64,000 nucleotides of DNA from an uncultured Kordiimonas sp. Lineage in GTDB: Bacteria > Pseudomonadota > Alphaproteobacteria > Sphingomonadales > Kordiimonadaceae. Shown here piece by piece: positions 17,412-27,859 of the stretch (the first letter of the stretch is position 1; each line of letters begins with the position of its first letter). The notes beneath the pieces were generated by a model that made no database searches, was not told where the DNA came from, and worked only from the letters and a program-made list of their open reading frames with translations. The stretch spans positions 496,001 through 560,000 of the forward strand of contig CANNEK010000002.1 in assembly GCA_947503625.1 (NCBI GenBank). The letters run 5' to 3'. The position numbers were made by a program, and so were the translations under genes.

Positions 17412-17612
17412 CCACGACCTCCTTTTTCAGGCGCTGTACCAACATTGGCACGAAAGATGTAAACAGATGTTTCAGCAATCGGCAATGCGAAACACGGGCC
17501 AACCACTACCGCCCACAATTGGAATAGTAATTTTGCTGGTTTGCAGATAATCGATTGCATTTTGATAGCGATATCGTCTTGTATTGTAACAGGAAATTTC
17601 GAGGAAGTGTCT

Positions 17613-18341
17613 ATGAGCTGGTATGCAGACTATTCAAAACCCGACGCCTTTCAGATGAAAAATGTCGGCTCCTCCAACTGGGAAGAATTTGTTTTCCATA
17701 GTGAACAAATTACCCAGGAGGTCCAGGAAACACTACTTGAATTCCTGCAGACACCCCTGTCCGATCGCCGGATTCTCGACTTTGGCTGCGGCATCGGGCG
17801 TGTTGCCCTGAAACTATGGCAGGATGCTGGCGCGCCAAGCCATGGGTGCGACATCAATCCGGATGCCATAAAATACCTGGGCCAACAATTGCCCGACGTT
17901 GATCTTATGGTCAGCACCTATGAACCCCCCCTGACATATGAAGCCGGGTTTTTCGACCTCATTTTTTCCATTTCCATCTGGACACACTTGCCGCCCGAGC
18001 TGCAAATGCCATGGCTCGAAGAAATCCACAGGATTTTGAAGCCGGGCGGTACTGCGCTGATCTCTATCTCCAGCGCCTCATCGATGCCGATCCGGAAAAG
18101 ACGCCTGGAGCTGTGGGAGAAATATGACGAAGAGGACCTGGAGCGGGAAGGCATCCTGTTTGTCGAGTATCGCTACCTGCAGAAAACACCTGAAGCATAC
18201 CCCGGCGTTACCAGCAGTTATGGCTCAACCATGCATAACTTTGATTTCGTAAAGCGCGAATGGGGCAAACTGTTCTCCAGTGTGGAGATCCGCCCCAAAG
18301 CAATTGCCAAATCGCAGGATCTGGTGATTTTGCGTAAATAG
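17613..18341 (+). CDS. Class I SAM-dependent methyltransferase
   Basis: A 242-aa methyltransferase. Motif I is ILDFGCGIGRVALKLW, with acidic residue CDINPDAIKYL as motif II and FDLIFSISIWTHLPPELQ as motif III/post-III, as in the Methyltransf_11/25 group of small-molecule and sugar methylases. Start ATG 17613 is set by GAGGAAG at 17601-17607 (5-nt spacing); the frame is open upstream to 17541 but without a ribosome site. It opens the second + strand block, divergent from the nucleotidyltransferase. The acceptor is unknown; glycan context suggests a sugar. Confidence 0.82.
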   Translation: MSWYADYSKPDAFQMKNVGSSNWEEFVFHSEQITQEVQETLLEFLQTPLSDRRILDFGCGIGRVALKLWQDAGAPSHGCDINPDAIKYLGQQLPDVDLMVSTYEPPLTYEAGFFDLIFSISIWTHLPPELQMPWLEEIHRILKPGGTALISISSASSMPIRKRRLELWEKYDEEDLEREGILFVEYRYLQKTPEAYPGVTSSYGSTMHNFDFVKREWGKLFSSVEIRPKAIAKSQDLVILRK

Positions 18342-18373
18342 AAACAGCAACCCGCTGGCCACAGGGCGAAAAC

Positions 18374-19966
18374 ATGTCAAATGCCGAAACAGGAATTGCT
18401 GAAGCCAGGGACAGTCTTGGGCGGCTGGCTATTATTGTTGCGGGAAAACACTCGAAGACGCTTGCAGATAGCTGGGCCATCCTGACAGGCCTGCCAGACG
18501 ATCATATTTTTGAGGTCGAATGTGAAACCGGTGGGCATACCGCCGCTTATGCGCAAGCGCTCGATTCTTTGGGCGCAACAGGCAATTTTGATTTCGCGCT
18601 GTGTACTGCACTGCCAGCAGTATCGGGGCAGTCCCTCCAACGGTCACTTAAAACGTTACTGCAGACATTGAACCATCACCCGCGAACAGCAGCCGTTGAC
18701 CTGGTTCAGGGAAACACCACAGAAATTGAGGGCGATCAGACCGTTTTTCACCACCGAAGCGTTGTTGATATTCGGTGTTTCGTTGTTTCGCTTGCCGCCA
18801 CAAAAGGGGCGGGTTTTCTTTCACATATTTTCCCTTTCTCGGTAGGCGCGGCAGAAGAGTGGAGCTTCCGGCTGCTCAAAAAGGGCTTGCTAACGGGCAC
18901 GGCCTCTATGGTTCTGGCTGATACCAGGACCGACCATGGATCGGTGGGACAAAGGGATCAAAAACTCTGTTATGAATTTTGCGCTCGATATTTTGTAGAG
19001 CATCACGGCCGCGACTGGGATACTGTGGCAGCCAGCTATCTGCCTTATGACCTGCAAAAGGAAAATGGCTTTGAGCAGGCGCGCATTCGCTGGCAGGCAG
19101 GGATTTCTGATCACGAACAGGCCCTATATTCCGCAACATTATCCGTTCCTGAAACCACAACAGGCGGTGTCTTGGGGCAGGACTATTTCGCCAGCAGGAT
19201 ATTTGGCATCGTGCGGCTTGTAACGGCAGAGAAAGCCTGCGAGCTACTGCATCCATGGTATTATCCGATTACCATAGGCACTGTTGAAGTTGACCCCGGC
19301 ATCGGTAGCAAGGAGAGCCCACAAACCCTTACCGCCAGACGGAGCTTCATGGATCATATTCTGATCGACACCGTCCCGGATTTGTATGACTTCAATGGAA
19401 AACATGTCCTGGATCTGGGGTCAAACTGTGGGTATTTCAGCGCCGTCTACGCCAAAGCAGGCGTCACCCGGGTGACGGCTGTTGAGGGCAGGTTACAGCA
19501 TATCCATCAGGGGCACCTCTATTGGGGTGCTAATAATTTGTTGGCTGGTAGCCATTATGAATTCCTGCATGCCAATGTGGACTCCGACCGGGACTGGCAA
19601 GATATTTTGGTGAGAGGGCCCTATGACGTCGTCCTGTGCGCCGGCCTTCTATATCATTTGCCGGACCCCTACACAGTGCTTGAACGCATAACAACGTGTG
19701 CAAAAGAAGCGATTATTCTCGATACCCGAATTTCGAAAACACTTCGCGGCCTAAGGGAACCCGGCGGTTTCAGTTTTGACGCTATTGTCGAGACAAGGGA
19801 TAAAATTGTTCCACAAAGGAAAGAACTCGAGCGCATCCTGACGTCAGCCGGCTTTTCGGTTGCCGAGATTACGTCGGACAAGCCGATGCCGCCCGGAGTT
19901 CCGGACGTTGATGACTATTCCAAAGGCAATCGCATCACTTTGCTGGCGCAACGGAAAGGAGGTTGA
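18374..19966 (+). CDS. Two-domain protein: unknown N-terminus plus CmoB-like methyltransferase
   Basis: A 530-aa protein. Residues ~1-250 have a weak glycosyltransferase look (FDFALCTALPAVSGQSLQRSL, GAAEEWSFRLLKKGLLTG) but lack a convincing metal-binding motif. Residues ~310-500 are a class I methyltransferase with motif I HVLDLGSNCGYFSAVYAKAG, VTAVEGRLQHI, and the CmoB/Methyltransf_9-like AGLLYHLPDPYTVLERI. The C-terminal part resembles the separate protein at 8969-9757, so the island has two relatives of this methyltransferase. The stop is followed at once by the next gene's Shine-Dalgarno context, implying cotranscription. Confidence 0.72.
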   Translation: MSNAETGIAEARDSLGRLAIIVAGKHSKTLADSWAILTGLPDDHIFEVECETGGHTAAYAQALDSLGATGNFDFALCTALPAVSGQSLQRSLKTLLQTLNHHPRTAAVDLVQGNTTEIEGDQTVFHHRSVVDIRCFVVSLAATKGAGFLSHIFPFSVGAAEEWSFRLLKKGLLTGTASMVLADTRTDHGSVGQRDQKLCYEFCARYFVEHHGRDWDTVAASYLPYDLQKENGFEQARIRWQAGISDHEQALYSATLSVPETTTGGVLGQDYFASRIFGIVRLVTAEKACELLHPWYYPITIGTVEVDPGIGSKESPQTLTARRSFMDHILIDTVPDLYDFNGKHVLDLGSNCGYFSAVYAKAGVTRVTAVEGRLQHIHQGHLYWGANNLLAGSHYEFLHANVDSDRDWQDILVRGPYDVVLCAGLLYHLPDPYTVLERITTCAKEAIILDTRISKTLRGLREPGGFSFDAIVETRDKIVPQRKELERILTSAGFSVAEITSDKPMPPGVPDVDDYSKGNRITLLAQRKGG

Positions 19967-19971
19967 CCGTA

Positions 19972-20931
19972 ATGCAGAAACCCGTTCGTACCGTCCTCGT
20001 GGAGCTGACCAACAATTGTAACTATCGCTGTCCTTCTTGCCCTCAGTCCATTTGGCAAAAACCAGACTTCCTGCATTCGCCTTTTGATCGCCCTCGCGGC
20101 TTTATGGCATTTGATCTGTTTCGGAATATTGTGGACCAGGCTTTTGAGTGTGCTGAGGAAATCAACTTCAGCTATTTTGGCGAACCAATGATGCATCCTG
20201 ACTTTGTTCCGATGATGAACTATCTGAAAAACCGGCCGCCAGGATTACGGGTCGTCATGAACACCAACCTGTCATATGCATCCGCTGAAGTTTTTCAGAC
20301 GCTGATCGACATTGAGCTGGATGATCTGCGCATCAGCCTGGATGCAGCAGACGGAAAAACCTATGAGGTGGTCCGGCCGGGGCGCTATTTTGTCGATCTT
20401 GACGGTACGTCAAAGAAGGGGGACAGATATGATACGATCGTTGGAAAAGCCGCATACTGGCACAGTCTCGAAGGTCACAGCCCAACCCGCCATGTATATA
20501 CGGTAAGCAGCCTCAATGAGCATCATATTTTGCCCTATGCAGAGCTATGGCAGCCTCATTTGGGCGTACGCGATGTCATCCTTTTCAAGAATGTTCTGAC
20601 TTATGGTGGAAAAATGGGGGATCCTCTGATCAAGGTAGGCCCCTGCAATAACTGGCGCTGGCGGTCCCTGACCATTGACTGGTCAGGGCGGATTTCCGCC
20701 TGTCATCTGGATACCAATATGGAATTGGAAGTCGCACACACGAAGGATATCTCCCTGAAAGATGTTTTCGAATCCAGCGCCTATCAGGCGGTGAAAAAAG
20801 CTTCCCTTGAGCGAACGATTACGCCCTGTGACACATGCGTCGATTCAAACTATTGGGACAATACGGTCAGGGTTTTTCACGACACATTGCTGGATCACCA
20901 GATGCCGGACAATTTTATCGGTGCTGCTTGA
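19972..20931 (+). CDS. Radical SAM protein with SPASM-like C-terminus
   Basis: A 319-aa radical SAM enzyme. The [4Fe-4S]-SAM motif CX3CX2C is Cys16, Cys20 and Cys23 in TNNCNYRCPSC, followed by NFSYFGEPMMHP (the GGE-type region) and RISLDAADGKTYE. The C-terminal part has further cysteines (PCNNWRWR, ISACHLD, CDTCVDS), as in SPASM domains that bind an extra cluster. Start ATG 19972 has AAGGAGG at 19956-19962; a TTG at 19963 overlaps that site and is rejected. The stop overlaps the cytidylyltransferase start (TGATG), so the two are coupled. The substrate is unknown; a sugar or sugar nucleotide fits the neighbours. Confidence 0.82.
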   Translation: MQKPVRTVLVELTNNCNYRCPSCPQSIWQKPDFLHSPFDRPRGFMAFDLFRNIVDQAFECAEEINFSYFGEPMMHPDFVPMMNYLKNRPPGLRVVMNTNLSYASAEVFQTLIDIELDDLRISLDAADGKTYEVVRPGRYFVDLDGTSKKGDRYDTIVGKAAYWHSLEGHSPTRHVYTVSSLNEHHILPYAELWQPHLGVRDVILFKNVLTYGGKMGDPLIKVGPCNNWRWRSLTIDWSGRISACHLDTNMELEVAHTKDISLKDVFESSAYQAVKKASLERTITPCDTCVDSNYWDNTVRVFHDTLLDHQMPDNFIGAA

Positions 20932-21719
20932 TGCCTGCTAGCCCAACAACAGCATGTATCATTCAGGCTCGCCGGACATCCGAACGGCTCCCTGACAAGG
21001 TATTGTTACCTTTAGCGGGAAAACCGGTTGTCACACACGTGATTCACAGATGCCTGAAAATACCCGGAGCTGGAAAGGTTGTTCTGGCCGCACCGGATGG
21101 CCCTTTTGAAGACCCGCTTGAATCGGTGGCCCGGGAAGCGGGAGCGCTGTGCCATAGGGGGCCGCTTGACGACGTTCTGTCCCGTTTCTGGGGCGCATAC
21201 CAGCTATGCCCCTCCGACTATGTGATGCGCATTACCGCTGATTGCCCTCTAATTGATCCTGACCTGTGTCAGCAACTGATCGAGAAAACCATCGCGACAC
21301 ACGCGGACTATGGCGCTTTGGTCAATTGGCCACATGGCCTCGATTGCGAAATATTCACTGCGAAACTTTTGAAAGAGACGCACGAGCAGGCCCATGAAGC
21401 AGTTGACCGCGAACACGTAACACTCTGGATGAAAAAACGGCCAGGGCTCAATAAAGTGTTTGTAACGCCAGACCAGCCTGAAACAATGAAGGGTAATCGT
21501 TGGGTTCTGGACTATCCAGAAGACTATGATTTCCTGAAAGAGGTATTTGAAAAACTGCCTGAAAGCCCTGGATACGGAGGCTGGCGTGATGTTGTAGGGG
21601 TTTTGAAGACCTTTCCAGAACTTCGCGACATAAACAACAGGTGCGAACAAATTTGGGCTGAAAAAAACCAACGGATATACCAGAAATCCGGCCAGATATG
21701 GCGCCCGCCCGGAACATAG
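20931..21719 (+). CDS. SpsF-like cytidylyltransferase
   Basis: A 262-aa member of the acylneuraminate/KDO cytidylyltransferase family, nearest the spore-coat SpsF group. The nucleotide-binding start is IIQARRTSERLPDKVLLPLAGKP, then RITADCPLIDPDL (metal-binding Asp residues) and WVLDYPEDYDFLKEVFEKL near the end. It is expected to transfer CMP from CTP to an acidic sugar or similar acceptor. Start ATG 20931 overlaps the radical SAM stop; a longer in-frame start at 20835 lies inside that gene. Last gene of the island; about 155 nt of control region follow. Confidence 0.82.
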   Translation: MPASPTTACIIQARRTSERLPDKVLLPLAGKPVVTHVIHRCLKIPGAGKVVLAAPDGPFEDPLESVAREAGALCHRGPLDDVLSRFWGAYQLCPSDYVMRITADCPLIDPDLCQQLIEKTIATHADYGALVNWPHGLDCEIFTAKLLKETHEQAHEAVDREHVTLWMKKRPGLNKVFVTPDQPETMKGNRWVLDYPEDYDFLKEVFEKLPESPGYGGWRDVVGVLKTFPELRDINNRCEQIWAEKNQRIYQKSGQIWRPPGT

Positions 21720-22857: not shown

Positions 22858-23763
22858 CTAGAGACTATTGTATACGAAACTCAGAAACGCTTTAGGCCAA
22901 TCATCCCCACCAGCGCCGAAGTCCTCCAAATATCCGTCAAGCGCGTCTGATGCCTGAACATCTTCCAGCGACGCGCCGTCCGATTTCATTGCCGCGACCC
23001 GGCCGCGAACTGCAACCAGCATATCGCGGTAGCTTGTCAGACCAGTTCGGTCTGTTACAGCGCCGTGGCCGGGGATAATGCGGGTGCTTTCGCCCGCGAT
23101 CCCCAGAACCTTGCTAGCTGCAGCAATTACGCCGTCAACGGACCCGCCGCTGTCAACGTCAATAAAAGGGAAACGCCCCATAAAGAATGTGTCGCCCATG
23201 TGGATGACATCAGAACCTTCAAAATGGACAATGCTGTCGCCGTCTGTGTGGGCGTTTTCCACATGGTGCATGCGTGCCTGCTCTCCGTTAAGGTGCAGAC
23301 CCGCCTGATCATTGAAGGTGACCACCGGCAGGGCAAACCCTTCCTGTGGCGGTGTGCGGTTATTGAAAGCCTTTATAAAAGAGCCAGAGGCCATGCGAAT
23401 GCGCACATTATCATGGGCCACAATCACCGTTCCCTCCTTGCCCAGATTTTCGTTGCCACCAGTATGGTCACCGTGGAAGTGGGTATTGATGGCAAAGCGG
23501 ATTGGCTTGTCAGATAAAGCTGAAATCGCTGTCCTGATCTTTTCGGTCAGCGGAGCAAACTGGTCATCGACGATGTAAACGCCGTCGTCACCAACCGACA
23601 CACCAATGTTACCGCCAGCCCCGAACAGCACATATATGTTTCCATTGACCGGCTCTGTTTTTATCTCAACCGCGTCCCAGTCCTGCGCTGCGACATGTGG
23701 TGCCAGATAAATGCTGGCCATCATTGCAGCCGCTGTTGTCCATTTAGACATGGTCACGTTCAT
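22858..23763 (-). CDS. Secreted metallo-beta-lactamase-fold hydrolase
   Basis: A 301-aa MBL-fold protein with a signal peptide (basic start, hydrophobic core, cleavage near VAAQ, residue ~27), so it acts in the periplasm or outside. The zinc motif HFHGDH is at 95-100 (His95, His97, Asp99, His100), with His172 (AHTDGD), Asp191 (MGDTFF) and His233 (PGHG). This layout matches subclass B-like and quinoprotein-relay-type periplasmic MBL proteins rather than proven beta-lactamases; the substrate is unknown. Start ATG 23763 is nearly on top of an AGGGGA site; ATG 23751 is an alternative. Confidence 0.88.
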   Translation of the reverse strand: MNVTMSKWTTAAAMMASIYLAPHVAAQDWDAVEIKTEPVNGNIYVLFGAGGNIGVSVGDDGVYIVDDQFAPLTEKIRTAISALSDKPIRFAINTHFHGDHTGGNENLGKEGTVIVAHDNVRIRMASGSFIKAFNNRTPPQEGFALPVVTFNDQAGLHLNGEQARMHHVENAHTDGDSIVHFEGSDVIHMGDTFFMGRFPFIDVDSGGSVDGVIAAASKVLGIAGESTRIIPGHGAVTDRTGLTSYRDMLVAVRGRVAAMKSDGASLEDVQASDALDGYLEDFGAGGDDWPKAFLSFVYNSL

Positions 23764-24091: not shown

Positions 24092-25315
24092 ATGGCCGAA
24101 AAAAAAACAGTCGCTGTCATCTTTGGTGGTCGCAGCGTAGAGCATGATGTCAGTATCCTGACAGGGCTGCAGTTTCTGGAAGCTTTGGACCCAACGCTAT
24201 ACGACGGCCTGCCTCTTTATGTTGATGCCCTCGGCCAGTGGTGGACTGGTGATGCCCTGAAAAACCGCAAAAATTATCCGGTTTCCCGAAGTGATGGCGA
24301 CCTGACCCAGGTTTTTCTTGACCTTGCTGCGCCCGCAACCGGCAGACCGCGTCTGGCAACTACACAAAAGGGCTTTTTTGGGGAAAAAACCGCCTACATT
24401 CCTTTTGATCTGATGGTGCCCGCAATCCATGGGTCAAACGGCGAAGACGGCACCCTTCAGGGACTGCTTGAATTCGCCGGCATTCCCTTTGCCGGTTGCC
24501 GCCCCCTTGGTGCCGCCGCCACGATGAACAAAGAGTTTGCCAAGGCCGTTGCCCGACAACATGGCCTGAGTATTTTGCCGGAACTCACGGTCAGCAAACC
24601 TGCCAAGGGCACGTTTCTTGACCCCGACATGCTGAAACAGTCCCTGGAGGGCATGCTCGGTGAAAACCCCTTTCCCGTGATTGCAAAACCAAGCAACCTT
24701 GGCTCCAGCGTTGGTGTCTCAAGGGCGAATGATATGGACGCGCTGATCGCGGCCCTGATGGCAATTTTCCGCCTTGATAGATCGGCTATTGTTGAGCCAT
24801 TTGTCCCGAATCTTGTTGAATATAATATCGCTGTCCGGCGAAATGCCGATCTCTTGATTGAAACGTCCGCTATCGAACGCCCCCTAAGCAAAACAGACGT
24901 TCTGGACTTTAAAAACAAGTACCTGGCAGGCGGCACACCTGGTGGCCCCAAGCTTGATACCGGCCCGAGCGAAGGCATGGCATCCCTAAACCGCGTACTA
25001 AGCCCGGAAGAACTCTCAGACGCGCAAGAGACCCAAATTCGCGATACAGCTTCCACCATTTTTGATGCTCTTGATCTGGCAGGCAGCGTGCGTATCGACT
25101 TCCTGTGCAACGGCGAAACCGGTGAACTATGGTTCAACGAAGCCAATACAATCCCCGGGTCTTTTGCCTACTTTTTGTGGGAAGCAGCGCTAACCCCCGT
25201 CAGCTTCCTGAAGCTCGCCAGCGACATGATTGATGAAGGGTTTCGACTTTCCAGCGAACGTCTGGGTGCAACCGACGCAGCAAGCGGCGAAGCAACCATT
25301 TTCACAAAGGGCTAG
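24092..25315 (+). CDS. D-alanine-D-alanine ligase-like ATP-grasp enzyme
   Basis: A 407-aa Ddl-family ligase that joins a D-amino acid to a second D-amino or hydroxy acid using ATP. N-terminal FGGRSVEHDVS (11-21), HGSNGEDGTLQGLLE (113-127), ATP-grasp VIAKPSNLGSSVGVS (196-210) and metal site ELWFNEANTIPGS are conserved. Two specificity positions differ from E. coli DdlB: Thr144 stands where Ser150 is expected, and Phe273 (LDFKNKY) where Tyr216 is expected. Tyr-to-Phe there is associated with depsipeptide (D-Ala-D-Lac) ligase activity. It is not in a division/cell-wall cluster but heads an operon with a hydrolase and a Mur ligase. Confidence 0.85.
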   Translation: MAEKKTVAVIFGGRSVEHDVSILTGLQFLEALDPTLYDGLPLYVDALGQWWTGDALKNRKNYPVSRSDGDLTQVFLDLAAPATGRPRLATTQKGFFGEKTAYIPFDLMVPAIHGSNGEDGTLQGLLEFAGIPFAGCRPLGAAATMNKEFAKAVARQHGLSILPELTVSKPAKGTFLDPDMLKQSLEGMLGENPFPVIAKPSNLGSSVGVSRANDMDALIAALMAIFRLDRSAIVEPFVPNLVEYNIAVRRNADLLIETSAIERPLSKTDVLDFKNKYLAGGTPGGPKLDTGPSEGMASLNRVLSPEELSDAQETQIRDTASTIFDALDLAGSVRIDFLCNGETGELWFNEANTIPGSFAYFLWEAALTPVSFLKLASDMIDEGFRLSSERLGATDAASGEATIFTKG

Positions 25316-25317
25316 TT

Positions 25318-26106
25318 TTGGCTTCAATGCAGGAAAATCCGGTTCCGGCGGAAACAGCGTGGCACCAAACCAGCAAAGGCAAAAATGCCGGGCCCAGTTT
25401 CATCTGGCTTCATGGTTGGGGCCAGGATATTTCAGCATTTGACCGCCTGTCGGGCTTGCTTGAAGGCAAGGGTCAACACAGGCTTTTTGACCAGCCCGGG
25501 TTTGGTAAAACACCGGTCATTTCCCCCGGTGATGGCACACGCGACTATGCCGAAAAACTCGCTATGCTTCTTGAGGGCACAGGCCCTCATATTTTTGTCG
25601 GGCACAGCTTCGGGGTACGGGTTTCCCTCCAGATGGCCGCTCACCACCCCGAACTTGTGTCGGCGATCGTGGGTATCGCGGGCGCAGGACTACAACGCAA
25701 AAGATCACTTGGTTTCAGGCTGCGCGCCCGCTTCATCCGGCTGTGGGGCAAAGCAACACGTATGATAGACGGATTGTTTGGAACAGGCCTGCGTCAAAAA
25801 TTCGAAAACCGCTTCGGCAGCGCGGATTACCGCAACGCTGGCGAACTCAGGACAACATTGGTCAAAACAGTAACAGAAGACCTGAGCGCCGTTTCAGCAA
25901 AAGCCTCGTGCCCAGCCTGTTTGATTTACGGTGAAAACGATACTGAAACGCCGCCAGAATTTGGGGAGCGGTATCAGAAAATTATGAAGAACGCCGAATT
26001 TCATGTCCTGCCGGGTTATGATCACTGGGATATTTTGACCCGCGGCGCCTATCAATGCGAAGCTGTCATCACTCGATTTCTGGACAAGATAAAGACCCAT
26101 GCCTGA
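25318..26106 (+). CDS. Alpha/beta hydrolase
   Basis: A 262-aa alpha/beta hydrolase. Oxyanion-hole segment WLHGWGQD (30-37), nucleophile elbow GHSFG with Ser97, acid Asp208 (YGENDTE) and His236 (GYDHWD) form a complete triad. There is no signal peptide, so it is cytoplasmic. Start: TTG 25318 has AAAGGG at about 6-nt spacing and lies 2 nt after the ligase stop; ATG 25327 is the alternative. The end overlaps the Mur ligase by 8 nt. Sandwiched between two amide/ester-bond-forming ligases, it may release or proofread their product; this is inference. Confidence 0.88.
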   Translation: MASMQENPVPAETAWHQTSKGKNAGPSFIWLHGWGQDISAFDRLSGLLEGKGQHRLFDQPGFGKTPVISPGDGTRDYAEKLAMLLEGTGPHIFVGHSFGVRVSLQMAAHHPELVSAIVGIAGAGLQRKRSLGFRLRARFIRLWGKATRMIDGLFGTGLRQKFENRFGSADYRNAGELRTTLVKTVTEDLSAVSAKASCPACLIYGENDTETPPEFGERYQKIMKNAEFHVLPGYDHWDILTRGAYQCEAVITRFLDKIKTHA

Positions 26107-27859
26107 CCTGAGCACCATAGATCCCACTCTCGCGACCGCCGCCAGCATCCTTGCGCTTTTCATGCTTTGGTTTGCAGCTGCCCGCGGCGCAGCCTTGATG
26201 ATGTTTTTTCAGCAGGAAGAATACGATAGCCCTCGTTTTCTCAACTGGCTGCGAGAAAAACAGGCATATGACAAAACAGCGAGCCTTTGGTTCGCTGTTG
26301 CCGCCGTTCTTTCTGCCGCCCTGCACAGCGAATTAGCGTCAGGTTTGCTGGAGAGCGCCGCCTACATTATTATTCTTCCATTCCTTTTTGTTCTGGTTGG
26401 CGTTTTACATGGGGCGCTAAAGTCCGCCAGCACCATGAGAGACAATAAAAAACCGCTGGTCAGAACCGAGCGCGTCAAACGTATTTTGCGAGTGTATCAT
26501 TTACTTGTGCTGGCTTTGCTTGTCGTCCTTTTTGCACTGGCAAGTCTGGCACCTGTTGGCTCAAGCTACAGTTTCTCTTATCAGGAAAATGCCGATAGCT
26601 GGATTGACAGACTTGAGTTTCTCAGTCTCAATCACGACTGGCGGCTGGCAGCTTTCACCCTGCTCGCGATTGGCTTTGCTCAGGCCTTGCCATTTCTGAT
26701 TGTCGCAGCCAACAAAATGCTGGAGCCTTTTGAAGAGCGTGTGAAAGCCCGGTTCCGCGCCGAAGCTGTCGAAAAATTCAACAAACTGGCGCCTACTGTC
26801 GTTGCCATCACTGGCTCTTTTGGCAAAACATCCACCAAGCATATTCTCGCCCATATTCTGGACGCTGCTGCGCCAACGCTGGCAACACCCGGCAGCGTGA
26901 ACACTGAAATGGGCATCACCCGTGTTATCCGCGAGCAACTAACACCCGAGCACCAGTATTTTATTGTAGAAATGGGCGCTTATGGCCCGGGTTCGATTGC
27001 ACGCCTTTGTCGATTGACTCCGCCGGATGTTGCACTGATAACAGCGGTTGGAGCGGCTCATTACGAACGCTTCAAAACGCTTGAGACAGTCGCGAAAGCA
27101 AAGTTCGAGATTGCAGAAGCTGTGTTCGCCAATAAAGGTAGGGCGGTTGTCAGTGTTGATGGCATTCCCACTGACCTGCTTGCTGAACGCACCAAGGCCG
27201 TACCCGGAGATTACATAACCGCCGGGAAAAATGGCGCTATTGGTTTGGTCGGTCACACCATCACACCAGACGGCCTTCAAATTGACATTACCGACGGTGA
27301 AGACAAACACACGTTAAAGTCGCCTCTTTTTGGCAACCATCAGGTGGACAATATCCTTATGGCGTCAGCCACAGCGCGGGCTTTGGGTTTGCCGTGGGCC
27401 GCGATCAAAGGGGCGCTGGCTACCGTGCCGCAAATTCGCTACCGGCTTGAGGTTGCGAAAAGTGCCGGTGCGCCGACGCTGGTCAACGATGCCTATAATT
27501 CAAACCCTATCGGCTTTGCTGCAGCACTTGACTGTCTTGATGTCTTGGTGAAACCAAACGGACGCCGTATTCTCGTGACGCCCGGCATGGTGGAACTGGG
27601 CGCTATTCACGACGCAGAGCACGAACGCCTTGGCACGCTTGCCGCCAACCATACGGATATCGTGTGCGTGGTTACCCCGGACCGGATACCAAGCTTCCTC
27701 AAGGGTCTTGAAGCGGCAAATGACGGCTCGACAACTGTCATGACATTTTCAACGCAGGACGCTGCCGAGCAGTGGGTCAAGGCCAACTGGAAACCAGAGG
27801 ACGTTGTGCTTTTCGAAAACAATCTGCCAGACCTTTACGAAGCAGAAGTCCGTTTCTAA
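26099..27859 (+). CDS. Membrane-anchored MurF-like Mur ligase
   Basis: A 586-aa protein. Residues ~1-210 hold about five membrane helices (around 12-36, 60-76, 84-107, 132-152, 182-204). Residues ~228-586 are a Mur ligase: P-loop ITGSFGKTS (237-245), the Glu-containing VEMGAYGPGSI (290-300), KAKFE at the usual modified-Lys region (~333-337), and NDAYNSNP (463-470), the MurF-type motif. Canonical MurF is soluble and ~450-470 aa, so this is a distinct membrane form. It should add an amino acid or dipeptide, perhaps the product of the Ddl-like enzyme, to a lipid-linked or membrane-near acceptor. Overlap with the hydrolase gene shows tight coupling. Confidence 0.83.
   Translation: MPDLSTIDPTLATAASILALFMLWFAAARGAALMMFFQQEEYDSPRFLNWLREKQAYDKTASLWFAVAAVLSAALHSELASGLLESAAYIIILPFLFVLVGVLHGALKSASTMRDNKKPLVRTERVKRILRVYHLLVLALLVVLFALASLAPVGSSYSFSYQENADSWIDRLEFLSLNHDWRLAAFTLLAIGFAQALPFLIVAANKMLEPFEERVKARFRAEAVEKFNKLAPTVVAITGSFGKTSTKHILAHILDAAAPTLATPGSVNTEMGITRVIREQLTPEHQYFIVEMGAYGPGSIARLCRLTPPDVALITAVGAAHYERFKTLETVAKAKFEIAEAVFANKGRAVVSVDGIPTDLLAERTKAVPGDYITAGKNGAIGLVGHTITPDGLQIDITDGEDKHTLKSPLFGNHQVDNILMASATARALGLPWAAIKGALATVPQIRYRLEVAKSAGAPTLVNDAYNSNPIGFAAALDCLDVLVKPNGRRILVTPGMVELGAIHDAEHERLGTLAANHTDIVCVVTPDRIPSFLKGLEAANDGSTTVMTFSTQDAAEQWVKANWKPEDVVLFENNLPDLYEAEVRF

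Follow-up and report, generated by a model that had tools for sequence, protein, structure and literature searches.

The window analysed here is a 64,000-nucleotide stretch of contig CANNEK010000002.1 (positions 496,001 to 560,000) from an uncultured Kordiimonas sp., which harbors three consecutive genes encoding a D-alanine--D-alanine ligase (Ddl), an alpha/beta hydrolase and a membrane-embedded MurF-like ligase; the last protein is designated as TM-MurF and the three genes together as the trio. MurF is regarded as a soluble enzyme that acts ahead of the membrane step. The trio very probably represents the housekeeping system of its lineage for the synthesis of D-alanyl-D-alanine (D-Ala-D-Ala) and its addition, in which TM-MurF stands in for the canonical soluble MurF. 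This reading is built on the gene content and the sole-copy status of these genes in the assembly, on canonical MurF being lost or eroded, on the absence of the uridine diphosphate (UDP)-binding domain from TM-MurF and on the conservation of its predicted cytosolic loops. In the proposed scheme, Ddl would join two D-Ala, TM-MurF would add the dipeptide to the N-acetylmuramic acid (MurNAc)-tripeptide at the cytosolic membrane face, a reaction that we infer from its sole-copy status and conserved active site, and the hydrolase would serve the same step, our best guess being an esterase that clears misformed ester-linked or acyl products.

The genome to which the window belongs (G000) comprises 4.07 Mb in 11 contigs and is estimated to be 100% complete. 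Its division cluster is located on another contig (L029) in the order ftsI-murE-mraY-murD-ftsW-murG-murC-murB-ftsQ-ftsA-ftsZ, as named from the open reading frames (ORFs), and the pair of Ddl-like and membrane-embedded MurF-like ligases sits outside it, as a preliminary description of this DNA had stated. Within the cluster, no murF was found between murE and mraY, which are 4 nucleotides (nt) apart, and no ddl at the junction of murB with ftsQ, where the two listed ORFs overlap. Across the whole genome PF08245 matched seven places, namely murE, murD, murC, the trio, two cyanophycin synthetase-like frames and one FolC-like frame, and the canonical MurF query gave no full-length match. PF07478 gave ten matches, among which the two best after that of the trio, on a domain scan of both, are proteins of 376 and 337 residues without the Ddl N domain, and the other seven score at most 44.4 bits. 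With TIGR01205 at E<=1e-25 the Ddl of the trio was the single match, and the genome yielded no complete Ddl besides it. An extra paralogue beside a normal pathway was ruled out, since no other murF or complete ddl was found; this is the very outcome that the preliminary description had named as speaking against its own proposal. The genome also holds four transpeptidase-domain matches and one S11 carboxypeptidase match, and it should therefore need pentapeptide stems. As side observations, the two Ddl-C ATP-grasp proteins lacking the Ddl N domain lie at L033:1474-2604 and L034:1045-2058, and two neighbouring large Mur_ligase_M frames of 933 and 583 residues at L031 (C1:955000-968000) are probably a cyanophycin synthetase pair.

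The distribution of the trio was followed through several genome samples. A scan of genome contigs yielded 21 loci, 17 of which encode TM-MurF and four ordinary MurF of Bacillota and Melainabacteria. At 16 of the 17 TM-MurF loci the ddl, hydrolase and ligase genes follow each other in this order on one strand (the ddl of L011 is cut by a contig end), while at L023 the ddl lies on the opposite strand about 2.4 kb off. In an order sample of 60 genomes, where a match starting near profile position 60 in a long frame was called TM-MurF, 29 genomes carried it among the matches listed (down to about 76 bits; two TM-MurF matches were split, and the sequences of 22 of the 29 went into an alignment), comprising 14 of 14 members of the window's own family (f1; other f numbers denote other families in the samples), 5 of 7 in f163, 2 of 2 in f164 and 8 of 8 in f160; no TM-MurF was among the matches listed for f2 (13 genomes), f161 (1), f162 (4) and f165 (11). 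A class sample revealed TM-MurF in 20 of 289 genomes at 247 to 1044 bits, the next best match reaching 159, and these are spread over 13 families besides f1, or 16 alphaproteobacterial families when f160, f163 and f164 are added. The weakest of them, from G031 (L079), has a hydrophobic N-terminal region with a KKPLV.T.RV motif. In a phylum sample of 349 genomes searched at the strict limit of 1e-50, three TM-MurFs were detected, all from f1.

At the 19 class-sample loci other than the window's own, the hydrolase gene adjoins the ligase gene or lies within 0.8 kb of it in 17, and 12 have a ddl nearby in one orientation or the other; contig ends account for some of the misses. Any of eleven flanking window genes was present at 18 of 18 Kordiimonadales loci versus 3 of 22 loci in other families, and yet the trio or the hydrolase-ligase pair was retained at 21 of these 22, with L076 holding the ligase alone. 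Because the order persists across families while the flanks vary, chance neighbourhood was ruled out, and the trio occurs as a unit far beyond chance. At the same TIGR01205 threshold exactly one Ddl, that of the trio, was found in all 14 f1 genomes, and exactly one in 34 of the 38 TM-MurF genomes examined, being sited away from the ligase in G117, G219 and G222.

Structurally, TM-MurF combines a MurF-type catalytic part with an N-terminal membrane domain. Its best NCBIfam match is TIGR01143, positions 63-403 of which align with residues 221-572 at 218.4 bits, below the curated cut-off of 288.6. Pfam Mur_ligase_M and Mur_ligase_C were detected without the N-terminal Mur_ligase domain, and the middle and C-terminal domains, the motifs and the catalytic residues (9 of 9 checked) are those of the MurF type, the nine residues being conserved at 96-100% across 52 TM-MurF rows. 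The UDP-binding N domain is missing, as indicated by the lack of a Pfam match there, by the alignment of TIGR01143 from position 63 only, and by the helical model of this region. The AlphaFold model (18 sequences), with a mean predicted local distance difference test score of 86.2, places helices at residues 9-39, 59-74, 88-115, 124-148 and 182-230 and a short hairpin at 153-180, with no Rossmann-like N domain. Foldseek against the PDB returned MurF at ranks 1 to 10 (rank 10, 2am1, is titled 'sp protein ligand 1' and is a MurF), and the membrane domain alone gave no fold match in the PDB at E<=0.001. Model, hydropathy and charge fit five membrane spans with the catalytic part predicted to be cytosolic, which agrees with the roughly five helices of the preliminary description; its P-loop at 237-245 was about right, Walker A being G239-S245, and its NDAYNSNP motif at 463-470 was found as described.

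In the membrane domain, columns that are at least 80% identical among the 52 TM-MurFs make up 10 of 21 in residues 38-58, 8 of 20 in 111-130 and 6 of 25 in 207-231, amounting to 24 of 66 in the predicted cytosolic stretches, versus 0 of 13 in 75-87 and 0 of 30 in 152-181, or 0 of 43 in the predicted periplasmic ones, whose columns are gappy (62% and 44% filled) and thereby receive a lower conservation score. Fully conserved residues of this domain include R29, Q38, Q39, Y42, D58, T123, R125, L208 and P210. On the predicted topology, such a cytosolic face is conserved beyond the needs of a plain anchor; binding the head group of a lipid-linked substrate, or a partner in the membrane, would require it.

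TM-MurF and canonical MurF are parted by one branch with 100% support in the Shimodaira-Hasegawa-like approximate likelihood ratio test, and this holds as well when the tree is confined to the catalytic core. The core tree covers 53 TM-MurF sequences and 25 canonical ones from Alphaproteobacteria and other groups; it was built by a quick method, and long branches (L079 and the canonical group) meet in it. By sequence TM-MurF is a deep separate branch outside the canonical MurF clade, and a recent fusion of a membrane domain onto an alphaproteobacterial MurF was ruled out by the tree. The preliminary description would have been weakened by trees that put both ligases inside their canonical clades; the Mur ligase, for its part, falls outside.

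The fate of canonical MurF in genomes that carry TM-MurF was evaluated at nine catalytic residues, the allowed letters being picked after viewing the alignment (K or S besides N467, S besides N469 and S besides T244); the Pro after NAN, which is lost in G292, G304, G309 and G343, falls outside the nine. Among the 14 f1 genomes, canonical MurF is absent from four (G000, G314, G331 and G337), dead in one (G328), altered from the catalytic Glu to Lys in one (G323) and intact at the nine residues in eight. In three f1 relatives (L104 of G298, L103 of G292 and L105 of G323), murF sits in the division cluster between murE and mraY, and the cluster contains no ddl. In the single-contig genome G328, a 473-residue MurF-like ORF (L127:7-1428) occupies the canonical site and is 36-37% identical to the MurF of G298; it keeps 0 of 9 catalytic positions and has lost the Walker lysine too, but its frame is still open, and it is perhaps retained as a scaffold. 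murE and mraY lie at most 4 nt apart or overlap in G000, G314, G331 and G337 of f1 and in G293 of f163, and are separated by 3-185 nt in G058, G117, G222, G235 and G275.

Another form of decay is represented by MurF remnants fused behind MurE in five genomes that all carry TM-MurF as well, namely G021 (L133), G153 (L134), G251 (L138), G050 (L136) and G166 (L135), which keep 0, 0, 1, 1 and 4 of the nine residues, respectively, and are truncated in the first four. These remnants preserve a stretch resembling the N-domain motif (S)R.V.(P)GDLF, altered in G251 and G050. Canonical MurF retains 6 of 9 residues in G219, 9 in G115 and 8 in G198, and in G300 it was seen as a fragment at the end of a contig, while the controls, five genomes without TM-MurF and four unrelated MurFs, keep 9 of 9. 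In total, the 20 TM-MurF genomes of the class sample comprise two with a near-intact canonical MurF, six with an eroded one, 11 with none detected and one unclear (G031, 63% complete). None was detected in G000, G013, G038, G058, G069, G117, G137, G222, G235, G237 and G275, several of which are incomplete assemblies; this result is weaker for G038, G069 and G137, as the canonical query missed the remnant of G251, visible from the length of the murE frame, and for G013, where no mraY followed murE within the stretch fetched. The 490-nt murE-mraY gap of G237 contains a 152-residue ORF (L142:6975-7433), possibly a further remnant. The presence of canonical MurF changes several times along the TM-MurF tree. 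Canonical MurF scores are lower in 21 TM-MurF genomes (median 346.2) than in 27 others (median 369.7, p 1.7e-6, with G328 and partial matches left out), but this difference is confounded by kinship and is not used as support.

The acceptor of TM-MurF is tentatively proposed, at slightly below even odds, to be MurNAc-tripeptide in lipid-linked form (lipid I or II), which would place the addition of D-Ala-D-Ala after MraY and not before; this acceptor is favoured because the UDP-binding domain is lost, the cytosolic face is conserved and MurT, a Mur ligase discussed below, offers a parallel. The textbook order would then be reversed, MraY loading UDP-MurNAc-tripeptide onto undecaprenyl phosphate and the membrane domain of TM-MurF subsequently holding lipid I or II for the addition, a sequence of events that we advance with somewhat less than even confidence. 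Addition at the lipid stage would render canonical MurF dispensable, which would explain its repeated loss and decay. It is also quite possible, if doubtful, that the membrane domain is a tether or docking platform only, the enzyme taking cytosolic UDP-MurNAc-tripeptide through other contacts or partners and passing UDP-MurNAc-pentapeptide to an adjacent MraY. The MurE-fused remnants fit such an arrangement, having kept the MurF N-terminal region and lost catalysis as if substrate binding were still wanted, as do two reports, in which the MurF of Campylobacter jejuni is said to use the UDP-linked tripeptide (PMC5530802) and that of Helicobacter pylori to interact with the membrane protein Csd5 (PMC9507126). 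In the ten genomes with a murE-mraY gap of at most 185 nt, however, no remnant fits into the gap (the canonical MurF query alone was applied elsewhere in these genomes), and the conserved charged residues on the predicted cytosolic face exceed what a plain anchor would need.

Several points weigh against the view that TM-MurF has taken over the housekeeping step, possibly on a lipid-linked acceptor. The eight f1 genomes with intact canonical MurF, out of 14, may divide labour between the two enzymes, and gaps in the 11-contig assembly could in principle hide a murF. The five MurE-fused remnants with a MurF N-terminal region, together with the G237 ORF, could point to continued presentation of a UDP-linked precursor, in keeping with the description of C. 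jejuni MurF cited above, and the gappiness of the periplasmic columns tempers the contrast between the two faces of the membrane domain.

The Ddl of the trio contains both domains and the residues of the ATP-grasp fold, and its 210.7 bits against TIGR01205 fall below the curated cut-off of 245.65, which was exceeded in one of the 38 TM-MurF genomes, by the second Ddl of G237. Residues K276-Y277, E17, S205-S206, R334 and N352 are present in 43 of 43 rows, and position 361 is always aromatic (F in 31, Y in 12). We take the K276-Y277 pair to mark D-Ala-D-Ala rather than D-Ala-D-lactate (D-Lac) ligases, and its conservation suggests D-Ala-D-Ala specificity; the aromatic residue at 361 is unusual, this position presumably being a Ser beside the second D-Ala in canonical Ddl. 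A special kinship with H. pylori Ddl was ruled out, as 2pvp ranks 12th. The complete triad that the preliminary description had assigned to the hydrolase was found and is near-invariant, with S97 and D208 in 47 of 47 rows and H236 in 46. The best NCBIfam family of this protein is NF058580 EstV, at 73.4 bits versus a cut-off of 300; EstV matches 21 of 21 aligned hydrolases with the lowest E-value over the 21, and six other families match all of them too. The EstV family, we assume, includes HP0739 of H. pylori.

These features bear on two further explanations. According to the preliminary description, the trio may be a dedicated route of its own, either attaching a non-standard D-Ala-X unit to a lipid-linked precursor or leading to a peptide-like natural product; a membrane-bound ligase with its own Ddl and hydrolase would suit such a route, as would the aromatic position 361. 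The proposed link to a lipid-bound precursor has stayed plausible, but the dedicated pathway is very improbable, given that the genome searches turned up neither a standard murF nor a further complete ddl to make the ordinary unit, and that K276-Y277 is invariant. Alternatively, the trio could give the main stem another terminus (D-Lac, D-Ser or other), the whole wall having non-standard ends; an altered second Ddl subsite, with the role of position 361 as assumed above, would agree with this, and a depsipeptide would go well with a hydrolase of the operon that cleaves esters, whereas the K276-Y277 pair and the ordinary transpeptidase and carboxypeptidase matches render it highly unlikely.

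The coordinates of the trio are compiled in Table 1; the three ORFs, all on the plus strand, lie where the preliminary description had placed them. Its 8-nt overlap between the hydrolase and TM-MurF genes was reproduced, and its 2-nt spacing from the ddl stop to the hydrolase holds for the TTG start, while an in-frame ATG at 25327 is an equally possible start from which the gap may be 11 nt.

Table 1. Features of the trio in the window
Feature	Position	Strand	Basis
Ddl (D-alanine--D-alanine ligase), 407 residues	24092-25315	+	PF01820 and PF07478 (Pfam)
Alpha/beta hydrolase, nearest EstV family, 262 residues from TTG	25318-26106	+	Pfam Abhydrolase; best NCBIfam NF058580
Hydrolase catalytic-triad span (S97, D208, H236)	25606-26025	+	conservation across 47 rows
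TM-MurF, 586 residues	26099-27859	+	TIGR01143 partial match; first ten Foldseek PDB matches MurF
TM-MurF membrane domain, residues 1-231, replacing the UDP-MurNAc-binding N domain	26099-26791	+	AlphaFold helices
TM-MurF cytosolic loop 1, residues 38-58, QQEEYD..RF..W.......D	26210-26272	+	52-row alignment; topology predicted
TM-MurF cytosolic loop 2 core, residues 117-129, KK.LV.T.R..RI	26447-26485	+	52-row alignment; topology predicted
TM-MurF Walker A region, residues 238-246	26810-26836	+	G239, S240, G242, K243 and T244 at 100% of 52
TM-MurF NDAYNSNP motif, residues 463-470	27485-27508	+	D464, N467 and N469 at 100%, Y466 at 96% of 52

In the surroundings of the trio, window positions 22858-23763 encode what by eye is a metallo-beta-lactamase-fold protein whose start resembles a signal sequence; its gene points away from the trio and accompanies it at 15 of 18 Kordiimonadales loci. 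Further upstream, methyltransferase-like, radical-SAM-like and nucleotidyltransferase-like ORFs (by eye) stand in a row at 17541-21719 and resemble a surface glycan or modification cluster; of two genes searched from there, at least one lies beside the trio at 2 of the 18 loci, some of which end short of that region. Among plasmid records none covers 80% of the ligase, and the hydrolase search gave distant hydrolases only, below 60% identity; the search of viral contigs and the promoter and terminator scan yielded nothing of use.

In this lineage a membrane protein that lacks the customary substrate-binding domain appears to have taken the place of the soluble MurF, and in several relatives the old enzyme is decaying at its original site. 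Should the acceptor prove to be lipid-linked, peptidoglycan would not be assembled in one universal order, and inhibitors of MurF that target its UDP pocket would be ineffective on bacteria of this kind. Campylobacter and Helicobacter, in which these functions are also neighbours, offer a possible parallel that makes the question testable in well-studied genera.

Compared with canonical MurF (TIGR01143; PDB 4qf5, 4cvm and 1gg4), TM-MurF shares the middle and C-terminal domains, the catalytic residues, the best fold match and the inferred reaction, but it lacks the UDP-MurNAc-binding N domain, bears a five-helix membrane domain instead, is encoded away from the division cluster and stands in a deep clade of its own. 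MurE-MurF fusions are known (e.g., PDB 8f5d, judged from its title), and in five of the genomes with TM-MurF, MurE likewise carries a portion derived from MurF, which, in contrast, has lost catalytic residues. Among the matches listed from the open-access literature, as titles and abstract openings, no membrane-embedded MurF is described, and a search aimed directly at such an enzyme gave a single paper, which deals with methanogenic archaea.

MurT of the MurT/GatD pair resembles TM-MurF in being a Mur ligase without the UDP-binding N domain, and according to two reports it amidates lipid I and lipid II and no UDP-linked precursor (PMC6085368, PMC6113224). Unlike TM-MurF, whose operon partners are Ddl and a hydrolase, MurT amidates D-Glu together with GatD, and it has a short N-terminus of about 35 residues and scores 27.8 bits against the TM-MurF profile. 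The three functions of the trio also share one neighbourhood in C. jejuni, compared here by published description: the ddl Cj0798c is reported to be just upstream of the alpha/beta hydrolase gene Cj0796c, near murF Cj0795c, and deletion of Cj0796c was unsuccessful, the gene possibly being essential (PMC5530802). The two arrangements differ in that, by locus number, Cj0797c lies between ddl and hydrolase. In a membrane proteome, a C. jejuni 'mur ligase family protein', CJJ_0816, is listed with two peptides from the outer-membrane fraction (PMC3460892); from the neighbouring locus number it is probably the C. jejuni MurF, and a membrane domain common to the MurF of Campylobacterota and TM-MurF would be no more than a lead.

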